Below, one piece after another: positions 1 to 19,794 of a stretch of DNA of 32,866 nucleotides; positions within the stretch are counted from its first letter, which is position 1, and each line of letters begins with the position of its first letter. The DNA lies in NCBI GenBank assembly GCA_947581715.1, contig CANPVK010000005.1:1-32866 (forward strand). The letters are read 5' to 3'. The notes beneath the pieces were generated by a model. It saw only the letters and a list, made by a program, of their open reading frames with translations, made no database searches and was not told where the DNA came from. Both the position numbers and the translations under genes were made by a program. Source of the DNA: an uncultured Bacilli bacterium. GTDB taxonomy: Bacteria > Bacillota_I > Bacilli_A > RF39 > UBA660.

Positions 1-389
1 GGTTTATTGGCTTCTACCGTTAATACGGTATTTAAAAGTAAAACTCCTTCTCTTGTCCATGGGACTAAACTTCCTTGTTCTGGAATAGGACATCCCAAAT
101 CATCATGCAATTCTTTGAAAATATTTTGTAAAGAAGGTGGTTTCTGTACTCCTACTTTTACGGAAAAGGATAATCCTTCTGCTTGATTTACTCCATGATA
201 AGGGTCTTGTCCTAAAATAACGACCTTCGTATCTTGATAAGAAGTATTGCGAAACGCTTTAAAAATATCCGTTTGCTTAGGATAAATTGTTTTGGATTGA
301 TATTCTTTCTGAACAAAAGAGATTAACTTGAAAAAGTATTCCTTTTCCATTTCTTCTTTTAAAATAAAGTCCCAATCATTACCAATCAT
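1..389 (-). CDS. ung: Uracil-DNA glycosylase, family 1 (UNG), N-terminal part; runs off the window edge
   Basis: This gene is absent from the ORF track because it is cut by the window edge. Translating the minus strand from the ATG at 389 gives about 129 residues starting [13 protein letters not shown]. They include the family-1 UDG water-activating motif GQDPYHG (with the catalytic Asp), followed by GLSFSV and later [11 protein letters not shown], all in the order expected of UNG. The enzyme removes uracil from DNA in base-excision repair and acts in the cytoplasm. The start is supported by an AGGTGGT ribosome-binding site about six bases upstream. The C-terminal half, including the catalytic HPSP-type loop, lies outside the window. 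It follows the AGCS symporter gene by 46 bp on the same strand and may be co-transcribed. Identification is secure; completeness cannot be judged. Confidence 0.93.
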
Positions 390-435
390 ACTACTACCAC
401 CTATTACTAGTTTAACATAATTTACTTCTTTCGTA

Positions 436-1734
436 TCATTTATTATATTTCTTTTGGTTTTGATAATCAACGATAATTTCCTTTCGTAAGCCAATTAAAG
501 CATACATATTTAAAATCGCTAAAATAGCTACCAGAAGGTCTACAAGCTTCCATAGTAAAGTAGCACTAGTAACACTACCAATCAATAAAAGTATTACAGT
601 TACTATTTTTAAAAGAAAAAGATGTTTATTTTTTACATTTTTAAGAATATATTTTAGATTACTTTCTCCATAATAATATCCAGCTACAATAGTAGAATAA
701 GCTAAAGCAATCACAGAAATCATTAAAACAAATATTCCAAACTTGCCTAAATGATAAGAAAAAGCGTATTGTGTTAATTCAATACCATTGAGATTAGGAA
801 ATGTAAAAGAAGTATAATCGGAAGTTAAAATTAATAAAGCAGTAGAAGTACAAACAATAAAAACAGTAAAATAAATTCCTAAAATTTGAATTAATCCCAA
901 ACTAACGCGATGAGAAGAATAAGAACAAGAAGAAGCAATGGAACCAGTACCTAATCCAGATTCCGTAGAAAAAACTCCTCTTTGAATACCAATCATAAAA
1001 GTAGAAAGAACTCCTCCACGAATGGCTTTTCCTTGAAATGCTTGGGCAAAAATAGTAGAAAGAACTCCAGGTATTTTTTCAACATTAAATAAAACAATTC
1101 CAAGACTTAATAAAACATAGAAAGCACCCATAAGAGGAACTAATTTACTAGTAATATTAGCAATTCGATCTAATCCTTTCAAAATAGAAAAAAAAGAAAT
1201 AATAGCTAAAACAATGCCAATCAAAAAAGGAGAAAATCCATAATATTGATGAATCGATGTCGTAATCGTATTCGCTTGAATCGTCATAAAACCAACAATA
1301 TAAGAAAAAAGAATCAAAACAGCATAAAGAATCGCTAACTTTCGATGATGAAGTCCCTTCTCCATATAGAAAGAAGGTCCACCTTGATAATTATCCCCAT
1401 CTTTTACTTGATATTTTGCTCCTAAATAACTTTCACAAAAGGCATTGATAGAAAGTAAAATTCCTGTTACCCAAATCCAAAAAATAGTACCAGCTCCACC
1501 AATATAAATAGCTAAGGCAATTCCTGCTAAAGAACCTACTCCTACTCTAGCAGCTAAAGACATCGTTAAACTCCGAAAAGGAGAAACCTTACTTTTCGGA
1601 TCACGATGGAACCCTTGAAATAACGAACGAAACTTTAGTTGAGGAAATCCCAACTTGATACTGAAATAAATTCCGCCACCCAATAAAAAAATAGTAGCAA
1701 TACTCCATAAAATATCCGTTAGTACTGTAATCAT
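436..1734 (-). CDS. Sodium:alanine (AGCS family) amino-acid symporter
   Basis: The 432-residue protein is an integral membrane carrier of the alanine or glycine:cation symporter family, which imports alanine, glycine or related small amino acids with sodium. It shows about ten hydrophobic helices. AGCS-type signatures include [13 protein letters not shown] followed by [13 protein letters not shown] near residues 61-92, and [13 protein letters not shown] in the C-terminal third, matching the family pattern of a small-residue helix ending in YYGE. The length is close to the usual 440-480 residues. The start has an AGGTGA ribosome-binding site four bases upstream. It lies 73 bp downstream of the XRE regulator gene on the same strand. 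The exact substrate, and whether it prefers alanine, glycine or glutamine, cannot be told from sequence. Confidence 0.92.
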
Positions 1735-1807
1735 GGTATCACCTACTACTATTATAAAATGAGAAAAAGAAAAAATATGTCAAAAAAATACTTGTTTCCT
1801 AATATTC

Positions 1808-2161
1808 CTATTTCTTTAATTGATTAGAAATATCACTAATAGCACGTTGTGGATCTCTTAAAAACTTCTCATATAAAACACTATCTTTCTTTAAAGCTTC
1901 AATAATTAGTAAATCTTCTTCTGATAAATTCACAATTCTATTTTTTCCCCTTGGTATTTCAACTTCCATTCCAATGAGCCATAAAAAATCCACTTCTAAA
2001 AAATGAGCTAAACGAATTAACACATCAATAGGAGGTGTCCTTTTTCCATTTTCATACAAGCAAATTTCTTGTTTGCTTAAATAAATTCCTTTCCCTAGAG
2101 TTTCCTGTGTCATATCTCTTTGTTCTCTGATCTCTTTTAATCTTTTCTGAAACACTTGCAT
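1808..2161 (-). CDS. XRE-family transcriptional regulator (HTH_3)
   Basis: The ORF track starts this at 2290, but the first 43 residues have no regulator-like character. The ATG at 2161 has a good AAGGAAG ribosome-binding site eight bases upstream, giving a 117-residue protein starting MQVFQKRLKEIREQRD. Residues 5-60 form a classic Cro/C1-type helix-turn-helix (MTQETLGKGIYLSKQEICLYE, then NGKRTPP and a following amphipathic helix). The C-terminal half is a short helical region with a possible dimerisation role. It would bind DNA as a repressor or activator; the targets are unknown. It lies upstream of the AGCS symporter on the same strand and could regulate that gene or the divergent-free region behind it, but nothing in the sequence proves this. 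Confidence 0.85.
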   Translation of the reverse strand: MQVFQKRLKEIREQRDMTQETLGKGIYLSKQEICLYENGKRTPPIDVLIRLAHFLEVDFLWLIGMEVEIPRGKNRIVNLSEEDLLIIEALKKDSVLYEKFLRDPQRAISDISNQLKK

Positions 2162-2186
2162 ATAATCAACTTCCTTGCTTAAGTTA

Positions 2187-2192
2187 ATTATA
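2187..2192 (-). promoter_or_regulatory. Possible -10 element upstream of the XRE regulator
   Basis: A perfect TATAAT lies 26 bases before the ATG at 2161. The hexamer 17 bases further upstream (CCCAAT) is a poor -35. A second candidate further up reads TTGGAA, 18 bases, TATACT. The 274-bp gap between this gene and the sulfatase also carries one perfect TTATCCACA at 2332-2340. Confidence 0.35.
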
Positions 2193-2402
2193 AGTAAATC
2201 GTTTTTTGAATTGGGAAAAGTTAACGGATAGTATACATAAAAATATTGACTTCTTCCAAATAAGAAAAAGTTACAAGTTTTCACAATCACTTACTAAATA
2301 TGATTACAATTTTAATATTTTATTGGTAATGTTATCCACAATGATGGGGAAAACTTTTCTGTAAAAATCTATCCCTATAAAATCCTTCTATTTATTTAAA
2401 AA

Positions 2403-2430
2403 AGAACCTTCCCAAACACAAGGAAGGTTT
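2403..2430 (-). terminator. Bidirectional rho-independent terminator after the LtaS-like gene
   Basis: The arms AACCTTCC and GGAAGGTT form an 8-bp stem with a nine-base loop. On the minus strand it is followed by a CTTTTTT run and sits six bases past the stop codon of the sulfatase gene. On the plus strand it is followed by TTTTCT, so it could work both ways. Confidence 0.85.
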
Positions 2431-2435
2431 TTCTA

Positions 2436-4382
2436 TTAAGGATTTAAATACTGATAATAATTATTTCCCATAATCATTTTACTCATATTCATACGATTTT
2501 GTACAACTTTTTTCATATAAGAAACATAATCATCTTCTACTGTCATTCCTTCTTTTAAAACAAATTGACCAGTAGAAGCAAAATAAGTTCCATAATCACT
2601 AACCCAACTTCTATTTTCAAAAATCGCAAGTCCTGGTTCCGTACTTAAGATATCCTTTCCAATAATAACTCTAGAATCATAATCGATACCAAATAAATTA
2701 TAAAGAGTTGGTAAAACATCAATCTGACTTCCTACTTTATCTATTTCAATTTTATCCATTTCACTATTCCATAAAATAAAATTACTTCGATTTACCTCTA
2801 CAACACTATCTTTTCGATAACTTGCTACTTCATTCACTTCATCAATAGATAAATAGTAAGGATAATGATCACCCACTAAAGCAATAACGGTATCTTCTAG
2901 TACTCCTGCTTCTTCTAATTTTTGAATTAATAATTCCAAAGCATGATCTAATTCAATTTGAGTTGCAAGATAAGCTTTCACTTTTTCACTATAAGGTAAA
3001 TGTTCTACTTCTTTTCTCCTCTTAGTAGCAATCGAGTTTCCAGACCATTCATAGTTTCCATGTCCACTAACAGTTACATAATAAGTAAAGAAAGGTTGAT
3101 CACTTGGACTAGATAAAAAATCAGAAGCAGTAACATCAATCATATCAATATCACTAGCAGGCCAACGATTACAGTTCATTAATTTTTCTAACCCATTTCT
3201 ACATCCTTTAAAATTACGAAATCCTAAAGCAGCTAAATATTGATTTCGATTTTGAAAATAAACACTATTATTATGATAAGCAAACGTTTGATATCCTTTT
3301 TGTTCAAAACTAGTAGCGATTCCAAAAGGGAAACTATTTTTTCCACTTTTCCAAGGAGAAAGAAATCCGGATGCAGCAATCATTCCCGTTAATTCCTGAA
3401 ATTCACCGCCAATCGTACTACTGATGGTAGGAGTATAATAATTCTGAAAAACAAAACCATGGTTTACTAATTGATATAAAGTTGGAGTTAAATCTTCTCG
3501 AACAGCAATTTCATTAAAAGATTCTGCCATAAATAAAATCAAATTTTTACCGGCAAACATGCCAGTGTATTCATTTTTAAGAGTTCCCTTTTCATTTTTA
3601 AAATACTCATGCATACTACGAATATTAGAATTTGTAGTAGCTTGTATCAAAGAATCAAAATCATAATCTAAATAATTAGGTTCATAAACAATAGGTTCTT
3701 CTTTTTCTGGTTCTTTGTTTTCAGAATGAGATAAATCAAAATGAATTTTTTCGGAAAAGCCAAAAATAGTTCTTTTTAAATCCAAAGACAAACTACTGAA
3801 AACTCCCATTTTTTGGATGGTTAACTCGGGATTATTGACATCATAAAATAATTCATATTCTTCTCCTTTGGGAAAGTAAAGAAGTAAATGAAAATTTGCA
3901 AAACAAAAGATTCCTAAAACAAGATAAACTCCAGCTTCCAACCAATTTCTTTGCATGACAGGAAGATGTCGGTAGAAAAGGATTGCTAAAACTGCTGGAA
4001 AAAAGAAGAAAATAATTCCTAAAAAGTGATGAAAAATCAGTTGTACTCCATCTTTAGAAAACTCTGCAACTTGTCCTGCTGCGGATAACAAAGAAAAATT
4101 AAAGTAAAAACCAAACATTTTAAAAACATAAAACTGGATACAAAACCAAAGACCAAACAAAAATAACACAACAATAAAAAAGATTCTTTGTATTTTCTTT
4201 GGTAAAAATAAAGTAATCAAAGTAAAAATACAAGCAATGCACATACTAGAAAATAAAAGGAAAAGAATGTTTTTTTGAAAAACAGAATGCCCCGTTAAAA
4301 ATTCAAAACTAATTTCCAAAAACAAACTTGCTAAAAAATAAAAAAATAAGAGATAAACTTCTTTAAAACGAAATTCTTTCAT
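2436..4382 (-). CDS. LTA synthase family protein (alkaline-phosphatase/sulfatase superfamily)
   Basis: The ORF track begins at 4436. I prefer the ATG at 4382 (MKEFRFKEVYLLF), which has a GGTGG ribosome-binding site eight bases upstream and removes a hydrophobic leader that overlaps a TATAAT element. The 648-residue protein has five N-terminal membrane helices (about residues 8-28, 35-58, 62-90, 115-140, 148-172) and then a large extracellular sulfatase-fold domain. Visible active-site features are LILFMAESFNE (metal ligand Glu), the STIGGEF segment carrying the probable catalytic Thr, VTVSGHGNYEW, and the metal-binding GDHYP. LtaS enzymes transfer glycerol phosphate from phosphatidylglycerol onto teichoic-acid chains. 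Other family members are phosphoethanolamine or phosphoglycerol transferases, so the exact product is uncertain. It is a single-gene unit closed by the hairpin at 2403-2430. Confidence 0.85.
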   Translation of the reverse strand: MKEFRFKEVYLLFFYFLASLFLEISFEFLTGHSVFQKNILFLLFSSMCIACIFTLITLFLPKKIQRIFFIVVLFLFGLWFCIQFYVFKMFGFYFNFSLLSAAGQVAEFSKDGVQLIFHHFLGIIFFFFPAVLAILFYRHLPVMQRNWLEAGVYLVLGIFCFANFHLLLYFPKGEEYELFYDVNNPELTIQKMGVFSSLSLDLKRTIFGFSEKIHFDLSHSENKEPEKEEPIVYEPNYLDYDFDSLIQATTNSNIRSMHEYFKNEKGTLKNEYTGMFAGKNLILFMAESFNEIAVREDLTPTLYQLVNHGFVFQNYYTPTISSTIGGEFQELTGMIAASGFLSPWKSGKNSFPFGIATSFEQKGYQTFAYHNNSVYFQNRNQYLAALGFRNFKGCRNGLEKLMNCNRWPASDIDMIDVTASDFLSSPSDQPFFTYYVTVSGHGNYEWSGNSIATKRRKEVEHLPYSEKVKAYLATQIELDHALELLIQKLEEAGVLEDTVIALVGDHYPYYLSIDEVNEVASYRKDSVVEVNRSNFILWNSEMDKIEIDKVGSQIDVLPTLYNLFGIDYDSRVIIGKDILSTEPGLAIFENRSWVSDYGTYFASTGQFVLKEGMTVEDDYVSYMKKVVQNRMNMSKMIMGNNYYQYLNP

Positions 4383-15271: not shown

Positions 15272-15296
15272 AATGTCAGAAAGTGAAGGGAAAACT

Positions 15297-15581
15297 ATGG
15301 ACAATATATCAAATTCTACAAATTTAAATATTAGATTAGATAGCAATTTAAAAAAAGAGGCAGAAGATTTATTTAAAAGATTAGGATTAAATATGAGTAC
15401 TGCTATCAATGTATTTCTAACACAAAGTGTTAGAGAACAAGCAATTCCTTTTCAAATAAAAGAAGATAAACCAAATAAGAAATTATTAAAGGCACTAAAA
15501 GAAGCAGAAAAAATAGCTCATGACCCTAAGATAAAAGGATATCACAATATGTATGAATTAATGGAGGATTTAAAAAAATAA
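15297..15581 (+). CDS. RelB/DinJ-family antitoxin
   Basis: The ORF track starts at 15273, which overlaps the region just after the -10. The ATG at 15297, with AAGGG five to nine bases ahead, gives 94 residues starting MDNISNSTNLNIRLDSNLKKEAEDLFKRLGLNMSTAINVF. This is the ribbon-helix-helix fold of RelB/DinJ antitoxins, which bind DNA and neutralise the toxin. The C-terminal part (EKIAHDPKIKGYHNMYELMEDLKK) is the toxin-wrapping tail common in this family. The stop overlaps the first base of the toxin gene, as is usual in such pairs. The antitoxin itself looks complete, in contrast to its partner. Confidence 0.92.
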   Translation: MDNISNSTNLNIRLDSNLKKEAEDLFKRLGLNMSTAINVFLTQSVREQAIPFQIKEDKPNKKLLKALKEAEKIAHDPKIKGYHNMYELMEDLKK

Positions 15582-15856
15582 TGATACTCGATTTAAAAGA
15601 CACTAAATGTGAAGTTAAATTTTCAAATTCCTTCAAAAAAACATATAAAAAAATGTTAAAACAAGGAAAAAAGGAAGAAAAATTTTTAGAAGTATTAGAA
15701 AAATTAGCAAATTTAAAAGAATTAAAAGAAAAATACAAAAATCATGCCTTACAAAATAGTAAAGATTATAAAAATTGTTATAAATGCCATATAGAACCAG
15801 ATTGGTTATTAGTATACCAATATATTGATAATAAATTAGTTTTATTATTGGTATAA
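15581..15856 (+). pseudogene. YafQ-type mRNA interferase toxin, C-terminus cut off by a stop codon
   Basis: The 91-residue reading frame matches YafQ-type RelE-superfamily toxins: FSNSFKKTYKKMLKQGK, then LKEKYKNHALQ, CHIEPDWLLVYQY and KLVLLLV. The family normally continues from LVLTLV into R-T-G-(T/S)-H-S-D-L-F, which carries the last catalytic His and a terminal Phe. Here a TAA stands at 15854-15856 exactly where the Arg codon belongs. The next in-frame codons read TGSHSDSF and then TAG at 15881. The lost piece includes the catalytic His and Phe known from E. coli YafQ, so the product is expected to be inactive unless the stop is read through. The antitoxin gene overlaps the start by one base. 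The remaining residues (His, Asp-Trp of HIEPDW) are intact. Confidence 0.8.
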
Positions 15857-18000: not shown

Positions 18001-19794
18001 CTATGGTATCAAAACAATACGAAAAGAAACAATAGGATCTGCACCACCGAGATAATGTCCAAATGCGAAAACACCAGTCATCACACCATCATACCAAAGA
18101 CCTCCACGAAAAAACCAGGGAAGAGATGAAAAAATAAAGTCAGCATAATCTTTATACCAACTACTTTTACTACGTAAATACTTATCTGGATCCTCTTCCT
18201 GACCAAATGGTCCCATCTCTCCTGTTGCATCTCCTAAAATTCGATTATTATATTGTAAACTGATGGTAGTTGTATAATTATCATAATATTTTTTCCATTT
18301 TTCATCATTGAAAAATTCTGGATAATTGTTAGTAATTTCACTATTTCCTCCAAAATACGTTGCATTAATGGTATATCCCATCACATATTCCCAAGCTCCT
18401 CCACTCATATCATAAACCCCTGTGATATTTCCAGTGGTAGAGGCATGATATCCTTCTATCGTATTATACATTTTTGTATTTGTCCCATTTTTATTGAGTT
18501 CTGTACCTTCTACATGATTTTCCGGCATATCCTCTCCATTATTATATCCTAATGTTGGTTCTTCTGTTCCTGCATAGCCTGTAATAAGAGATTTATTATT
18601 ATTGATCCTTACACTTTCGTGAGAACCATATTTAGAATGTTGTAGGTAGGCTACTGCTCCCCATTCGGTATTCTTCATCATATGACTCTCTTCATTTCTT
18701 AAATATTCATAGGATGCTTGAAATGCATTTCCGATACTAATATTTCTCCAACTATAAACATTTGGTTTAATGATGATTTTATCTGATTTTGCTTCATTGA
18801 TTTGAGCCTCTGTTGTTTGTTTTGCTCCCTCATATCCTGTTTCAAACTTTCCTACCCAAAATCCGTTTCCTCCAAATGCTAAAAAGGCTGGATGTGTCAT
18901 ATAATTTCCTTTTTGACAAGAACCTATAGAGCCTGCTATTCTTGGGGTTAGACACTCTCCTACTATTTTATCCGAAGTATTAGTAATTCCAAACTGTATC
19001 TCAATTGTTGGTGGTTTATCGGTTGTAAAACTTGTTAAATTACTATATTCTTCTATATTAAATAACTGATATTTATACTTTGGTATCCAAACAAAATAAC
19101 TTTCTATGTCACTCTCTGGTATTACTTCATCATTTTCATACTTTTTATTCTCATCTTTTAATACTACCGCATTTGCCCATCTCTTGTTTTCATATTGATA
19201 CCAAATATCATATAAATTAGCTTTCTTTACAGTTCCATCATCCGCAAGTTTTACTGGAATTAAGTGATCTGTTAATTCTGGATTTGCTCCATTTAAAATA
19301 TTTTCTGCATAATAAGATATTTCTGATATATGATATCCTTTTTTTAATGCTAAATCATGATTCTGGAATCCCCCTTCTACTCCAAAAGTAATCGTTTGAT
19401 CTTGATTAGAATAATTACGAATATAAATGGTTATCTTCTTTTTCCCACTAGCTTCTATCTCTCCAGTTGGCAAATCCGTTGTATTACTTGTATACCCAAT
19501 ATCGAACTGAGCAGAATTATTTTCTATTTCATAAAATAATTCATATTCCGAACCAATCGTATTCAAAGAAGTAACAGTAATTACTATTTCTTTTGTGGTA
19601 CTAGCTGGTATTATAACCTGATGATTTACTAGATCACTACTTTCTAATTGATAATCCAAAGTTCCTACTACCAAATTTAATTTCCCATGTTCTTCGATTT
19701 GATGTGTAAAAAAGGCATAAGAATAGTAAGCAGTAGATATCAAGAAAATAAATAATATCAATAAACTAAAATAAATCATTTTCTTTTTCATCAT
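18001..19794 (-). CDS. Exported protein with C-type-lectin/FGE-like C-terminal domain; possible DGR target
   Basis: The 597-residue protein has an N-terminal hydrophobic segment (about residues 5-27) that is a signal peptide or anchor. A beta-rich domain follows (about 35-150, KLNLVVGTLDYQLESSDL onwards), then a long domain with ESYFVWIPKYKYQLF, GFWVGKFETGYEG, EWGAVAYLQHSKYG, GVYDMSGGAWEYVMG and a final FFRGGLWYDG ... SFRIVLIP. This set is typical of formylglycine-generating-enzyme/C-type-lectin folds, which are used as variable ligand-binding surfaces in diversity-generating retroelements. The catalytic role of true FGE is not suggested. Two consecutive ATGs are possible (19794 or 19791). 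The AGGT ribosome-binding site touches the first, so the second is favoured. It is a single-gene unit on the minus strand, next to the plus-strand accessory block. Confidence 0.75.
   Translation of the reverse strand: MMKKKMIYFSLLILFIFLISTAYYSYAFFTHQIEEHGKLNLVVGTLDYQLESSDLVNHQVIIPASTTKEIVITVTSLNTIGSEYELFYEIENNSAQFDIGYTSNTTDLPTGEIEASGKKKITIYIRNYSNQDQTITFGVEGGFQNHDLALKKGYHISEISYYAENILNGANPELTDHLIPVKLADDGTVKKANLYDIWYQYENKRWANAVVLKDENKKYENDEVIPESDIESYFVWIPKYKYQLFNIEEYSNLTSFTTDKPPTIEIQFGITNTSDKIVGECLTPRIAGSIGSCQKGNYMTHPAFLAFGGNGFWVGKFETGYEGAKQTTEAQINEAKSDKIIIKPNVYSWRNISIGNAFQASYEYLRNEESHMMKNTEWGAVAYLQHSKYGSHESVRINNNKSLITGYAGTEEPTLGYNNGEDMPENHVEGTELNKNGTNTKMYNTIEGYHASTTGNITGVYDMSGGAWEYVMGYTINATYFGGNSEITNNYPEFFNDEKWKKYYDNYTTTISLQYNNRILGDATGEMGPFGQEEDPDKYLRSKSSWYKDYADFIFSSLPWFFRGGLWYDGVMTGVFAFGHYLGGADPIVSFRIVLIP

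Follow-up and report, generated by a model that had tools for sequence, protein, structure and literature searches.

The window, a 32,866-nt stretch of a contig from an uncultured Bacilli bacterium, carries a gene for a surface-type protein with an N-terminal hydrophobic segment and a domain common to many proteins of the same genome (Table 1). The N-terminal part recurs on contigs C40, C77, C27, C7, C20, and C49, and the open reading frame (ORF) ends in ...FFRGGLWYDGVMTGVFAFGHYLGGADPIVSFRIVLIP. Elsewhere in the window, two adjoining small ORFs read like a RelB/DinJ-type antitoxin and a YafQ-type toxin.

Table 1. Features of the window and of locus L077, a related diversity-generating retroelement (DGR) with reverse transcriptase (RT), template repeat (TR), and variable region (VR) target
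Sequence	Feature	Position	Strand	Basis
Window	Surface-type protein gene, 597 aa	18001..19794	(-)	ORF
Window	FGE-type C-type-lectin-like domain (predicted), residues 300-597	18004..18897	(-)	AlphaFold2, Foldseek, HMM profile
Window	14 codons upstream of VR, YNNRILGDATGEMG	18211-18252	(-)	
Window	VR, YKDYADF...SFRIVL, span common to relatives' TRs	about 18010-18156	(-)	Alignment with 21 TRs
Window	First VR codon at a TR-AAY column, Y550 (TAT)	18145..18147	(-)	TR alignment
Window	TR-AAY-column codons in between: D552, F555, L558, F562, L566, Y568, D569, M572, A577, G579, H580, Y581, L582, D586, I588		(-)	TR alignment
Window	Last VR codon at a TR-AAY column, V589 (GTT)	18028..18030	(-)	TR alignment
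Window	Two small ORFs, 102 and 91 aa, putative antitoxin and toxin	15273-15856		
L077	Target ORF	3-1343		
L077	TR, NSNFVNSGNPWFNRGGNYNNGVLAGPFNFNNNTGGANGNIGFRLV	about 1609-1760		
L077	MutS-I-like ORF	1951-2361		PF01624, 1.8e-7
L077	bAvd	2362-2718		PF22296, 2.2e-20
L077	RT	2691-3734		PF00078, IPIGNYTSQ motif

Matches of the whole window protein to Pfam and NCBIfam all fall below cut-off, and matches to the FGE-sulfatase family are weak and present in 12 of 18 family members. An AlphaFold2 model of the lectin domain, built from an alignment with 49 relatives, has a pTM of 0.83 and a mean pLDDT of 77.8; an earlier prediction from 18 sequences (pLDDT 45) was discarded. Foldseek comparison of the model with the PDB places TaqVP (5vf4, 5.3e-6) at the top, followed by weaker matches to Mtd (1yu1, 0.013) and FGE (6muj, 0.085), and the superposition on TaqVP is partial, with a TM of about 0.45. 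The family HMM profile also matches 5vf4 among PDB sequences (E=1.2e-4). Structure 5VF4 is TaqVP, a DGR variable protein (PMC6328139), and it is the closest solved structure both by profile and by predicted fold. The window protein is predicted to have a C-type-lectin fold with a C-terminal VR, which stops two codons short of the last residue.

A search of GTDB genomes recovers 441 relatives, the best 80 of which are mostly from uncultured gut Bacilli. Locus L077 (MAG SIG197, contig SVAH01000021.1) is a complete DGR of the window class with TR and target adjacent, and its VR differs from its TR at 17 of 36 adenines and at 1 of 102 other positions. Its MutS domain I stands alone as an accessory ORF between TR and bAvd. 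The SIG197 target is homologous to the window protein, with the same framework and VR position and 49% identity over the C-terminal part, but it differs in having the TR, MutS-I-like ORF, bAvd, and RT beside it and VR-TR mismatches almost exclusively at A. The window protein is also homologous to other TR-adjacent targets. TRs of the window class number 21 in our set and come from across the bacterial family; in ten loci the adjacent target has 0 to 2 non-A mismatches of about 105, and at three further loci the closest target, with 13 to 19 such mismatches, is older. When the TRs of the closest relatives are compared with the window VR, for which no TR of its own was found, 24 to 35 of about 100 non-A positions differ. 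Across 291 family genomes, 31 have both the VR class and an RT, 29 the VR only, 17 the RT only, and 214 neither, a strong association of VR class and RT (p=1.2e-13).

The VR framework is common to five genes in the window genome, the others being on contigs C3, C57, C35, and C60; contigs C23 and C60 have overlapping end sequences and so probably each carry half of a single gene. None of the five has an in-frame stop in its assembled parts, and they are therefore probably still made. Some paralogs (those on C57 and C23) have an extra insert of ∼200 aa, LamG/concanavalin-type by look, that separates the lectin domain from the N-terminal part, and the window gene is without it. In the five-paralog codon alignment, framework codons are kept, and the variable codons have bases 1 and 2 scrambled with base 3 mostly T or C, as in the columns GAC, CAC, AAC, TAC, TTC and CTT, CTT, GAT, CAT, CGT; some variable codons (ATG, GGA, and GAA) break this NNY pattern. 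To relate these columns to templates, a column was called TR-AAY if a third or more of the relatives' 21 TRs have AAY there, with columns set from the relatives and then applied here, and hypervariable if it has three or more residues among the five paralogs. TR-AAY columns account for 15 of the 23 hypervariable columns and for 2 of the 26 that are conserved (Fisher p=2.6e-5), and codons ending in T or C make up 79 of 85 at TR-AAY columns, compared with 45 of 80 at other variable VR columns (p=2.6e-8) and 50 of 95 at variable upstream columns (p=5e-10); these p values are indicative only, because the five paralogs are kin and the AAY threshold was chosen by the analyst.

The first-pass annotation had read the 3' end of the window gene as a DGR-type variable region, and both its reading of the terminal residues (WYKDYADFIFSSLPWFFRGGLWYDGVMTGVFAFGHYLGGADPIVSFRIVLIP) and the claim itself hold up, the latter through homologous complete DGRs in the same family and through the codon pattern. 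Its list of variable codons stands in part: L566, Y568, D569, Y581, D586, I588, and V589 fall where half or more of the relatives' TRs have AAY, and H580 and L582 where 38 to 43% of them do, but at P587 the figure is 5%, and the Gly on the list belongs wholly or almost wholly to the framework. The VR also reaches further upstream than that list, which missed the variable sites D552, F555, L558, and F562. Of the 17 TR-AAY-column codons in the window VR, M572 (ATG), A577 (GCA), and G579 (GGA) do not end in T or C, and A577 is identical in all five paralogs despite its TR-AAY column. The caveat in the first-pass annotation, that low-GC codon bias could lie behind the T endings, does not hold, as other variable columns are far less often T/C-ending; A/T-rich codon usage therefore does not explain the excess. 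That the window-gene 3' end is a DGR-type variable region, of DGR origin by homology, is strongly supported by these sequence comparisons, and DGR ancestry of the VR, taken alone, is very probable. The window gene descends from, and is built like, DGR targets, and in this assembly it does not belong to a complete DGR.

The genome searched for the rest of the element is a draft of 1.26 Mb in 94 contigs, estimated at 94.4% complete. No DGR-type RT is found in this draft; its sole RT, a 625-aa protein on contig C20, was rejected as a candidate because it is of the group II intron type, and the SIG197 RT used as a query gives only 13 bits. Searches of the genome for a TR with the VR DNA return coding paralogs and short chance matches only, a TR-like protein query returns only the five VRs, and there is no TR in the assembled 3' flanks of all five VR genes (1.5 kb each). 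The bAvd model PF22296 has no match in this genome and is above cut-off in the genus only in G001, although this negative is weak alone because the model also missed the DGR-bearing genomes G005, G015, and G016. The check for a TR and RT that accompanied the first-pass annotation thus yields neither, within the reach of a 94%-complete draft, which counts against current activity and not against ancestry.

The same components are missing more widely in the genus. The other five VR-rich species (G006, G007, G012, G013, and G014) have no bAvd match and no TR of the window class, and the six VR-rich species together have no DGR RT save a TAG-rich one in G014. That DGR-like RT (L148, G014:C2) was rejected as the missing element, as it has seven in-frame TAG codons, phage-like ORFs alongside, and no TR of the window class; its frame has no TAA or TGA within the match and a holin-like ORF adjoins it, possibly reflecting a TAG-recoded phage. 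DGR-type loci of the sister species G001, G005, G015, and G016 and the RT locus of G008 were likewise rejected, as their templates are of another class. In these loci (L033, L032, L039, L034, and L037, respectively, for G001, G005, G015, G016, and G008), N-rich template-like repeats, WSLSPN..GVRP-like or ..GVAPDF, lie beside RTs mostly with the DGR-type TSQ motif, and none of the five genomes has a VR of the window class. A phage DGR on viral contigs L188/L189 is unrelated, and no relatives of the window domain were found in viral contigs or phages. Among other VR-rich family genomes, 6 of 21 are likewise without an RT at the threshold used, which makes one missing RT weak evidence. A TR is present in at least one of the six, G096, and some RT absences are therefore gaps of assembly or threshold. 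Absence shared across the genus is stronger evidence than absence from a single genome.

The VRs themselves also appear old. Freshly homed VRs of relatives depart from their TR almost only at A. Pairwise third-base divergence among paralogs at TR-AAY sites is 0.35 in this genome and 0.49 to 0.64 in the five further VR-rich species of its genus, but 0.08 (SIG197) and 0.00 (Lapin-027 bin69, two genes) in genomes that have a TR. Same-residue framework codons differ in 35% of pairwise comparisons in this genome; framework synonymous divergence was set aside as an age measure, as it gives no clean split of DGR-bearing genomes (0.33 in SIG197) because these keep old targets too. In G176, 20 sampled targets of one TR have 0 to 29 non-A mismatches of about 89, with 8 of the 20 having at most 1, and VRs therefore age when they are not re-homed; the VR set of the window genome resembles the aged class. 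G176 (loci L218-L237, TR in L168) and G037 (loci L238-L257, TR in L166) each have one TR and at least 20 dispersed targets of its class, in genomes of 1.3 to 1.6 Mb, and the mismatch gradient in G176 looks as if the targets were homed at different times. The one syntenic ortholog of the window gene, beside rlmH in G013, is identical at 24 of 51 positions in the VR span, compared with 87 of 119 in the conserved core. Two further loci show decay of VR copies in the genus: in L145 (G012) the conserved Trp of the VR is replaced by an in-frame stop, and L144 (G013:C1:24135-24269, around 1500) has a VR-like fragment between genes, PWFDRGGDWNNGSYVGVFAFNTYTGGMTSHLSFRIVLAP, closely preceded by a stop and followed by a guanylate-kinase-like gene.

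These observations are probably best explained by DGR loss that left the VR family orphaned and ageing: mutagenic retrohoming in an ancestor would have written the VR, and the lineage would then have lost its RT, Avd, and TR. The main competing explanation is that an active DGR is missing from the draft or lies on an unbinned mobile element and diversifies the genes in trans. The fragmented and incomplete assembly leaves room for this, and multi-target trans DGRs do exist in the family, as the G176 targets with at most one non-A mismatch illustrate. It is nonetheless unlikely, given that the six VR-rich species have no TR of the window class, no bAvd, and no DGR RT other than the TAG-rich one, that the flanks of all five VR genes are assembled and TR-free, that the domain has no relative in viral contigs or phages, and that both framework and third positions have diverged between paralogs. 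Drift of the VR framework is too extensive to support recent homing from a single template, and the suggestion in the first-pass annotation that an element acts at a distance finds no support in the searches for RT, bAvd, and TR.

A second alternative is that these are ordinary paralogous C-type lectins whose ligand-facing residues were diverged by selection, with a DGR never involved. Lectin loops are able to diverge in this way, no TR is found in this genome, and some variable codons are not NNY, but the variable columns coincide with the AAY columns in the TRs of homologous DGRs, T/C third bases are far above those at other variable columns of the same genes, and intact DGRs within the bacterial family target the homologs, making this explanation very improbable. 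Just as improbable is diversification through recombination or gene conversion involving the 3' ends of paralogs and partial cassettes: there are several paralogs, the 14 codons upstream of the VR are DNA-invariant in all five although the neighbouring sequence has diverged, and G013 has an orphan VR fragment, but the paralogs differ at single codons dispersed over TR-AAY columns of a common framework and not in blocks. Contigs C23 and C60 break at this invariant stretch.

In the favoured explanation, the window gene codes for a surface protein whose C-terminal FGE-type lectin domain belongs to a large DGR-target family of uncultured gut Bacilli. In the DGR-bearing relatives, the mechanism is legible in the sequence: an error-prone RT with bAvd copies a TR that has AAY codons and lies beside a target gene, adenines are randomised, and the cDNA takes the place of the 3'-terminal VR in a single target or in many dispersed ones. 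In the window lineage, loss of the RT, Avd, and TR appears to have followed target diversification, and the window gene and at least four paralogs would persist as a fixed set of differing, putatively ligand-binding surfaces that now evolve by ordinary drift and selection. The sequence comparisons directly show the homology, the coincidence of variable codons with TR-AAY codons, the intact DGRs of relatives, the failure to find DGR parts in this assembly, and the framework drift; from these we infer that a DGR once acted in this lineage, that the element was lost and not simply left unassembled, and that the VR binds ligands. More tentatively, the mutator may have been lost in an ancestor of about six related species, with many targets kept, mostly in frame, and diverging slowly, such that a hypermutated repertoire became a fixed, inherited one and non-A differences could serve as a clock since the last homing.

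TaqVP of Thermus aquaticus (PDB 5VF4) and Mtd of phage BPP-1, the best match and the next by fold, likewise have a C-terminal VR on an FGE-type lectin fold, but the window genome differs in having no detected RT, Avd, or TR and a VR framework that has drifted between paralogs. A closer parallel is found in Treponema denticola, in which DGR targets with VRs remain in isolates without RT and TR and are read as leftovers of lost DGRs (PMC4891356). There, the TR of a sister isolate still differs from the VR mostly at A, whereas the window gene and its paralogs have no close TR known, their VRs have drifted, and the absence extends over about six species of one genus. The window gene would be a further case of such leftover targets, in an uncultured Bacilli family and with an absence of the element that seems common to a group of species in the genus. 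Metagenome surveys that require a VR next to an RT overlook such genes, a limit stated in PMC8144416. DGR-shaped genes are recognisable after loss of the element when the relatives' TRs are used as a yardstick, and this bacterial family, whose small genomes each have many dispersed DGR targets, offers a way to trace across species how diversified surface proteins are retained and age.
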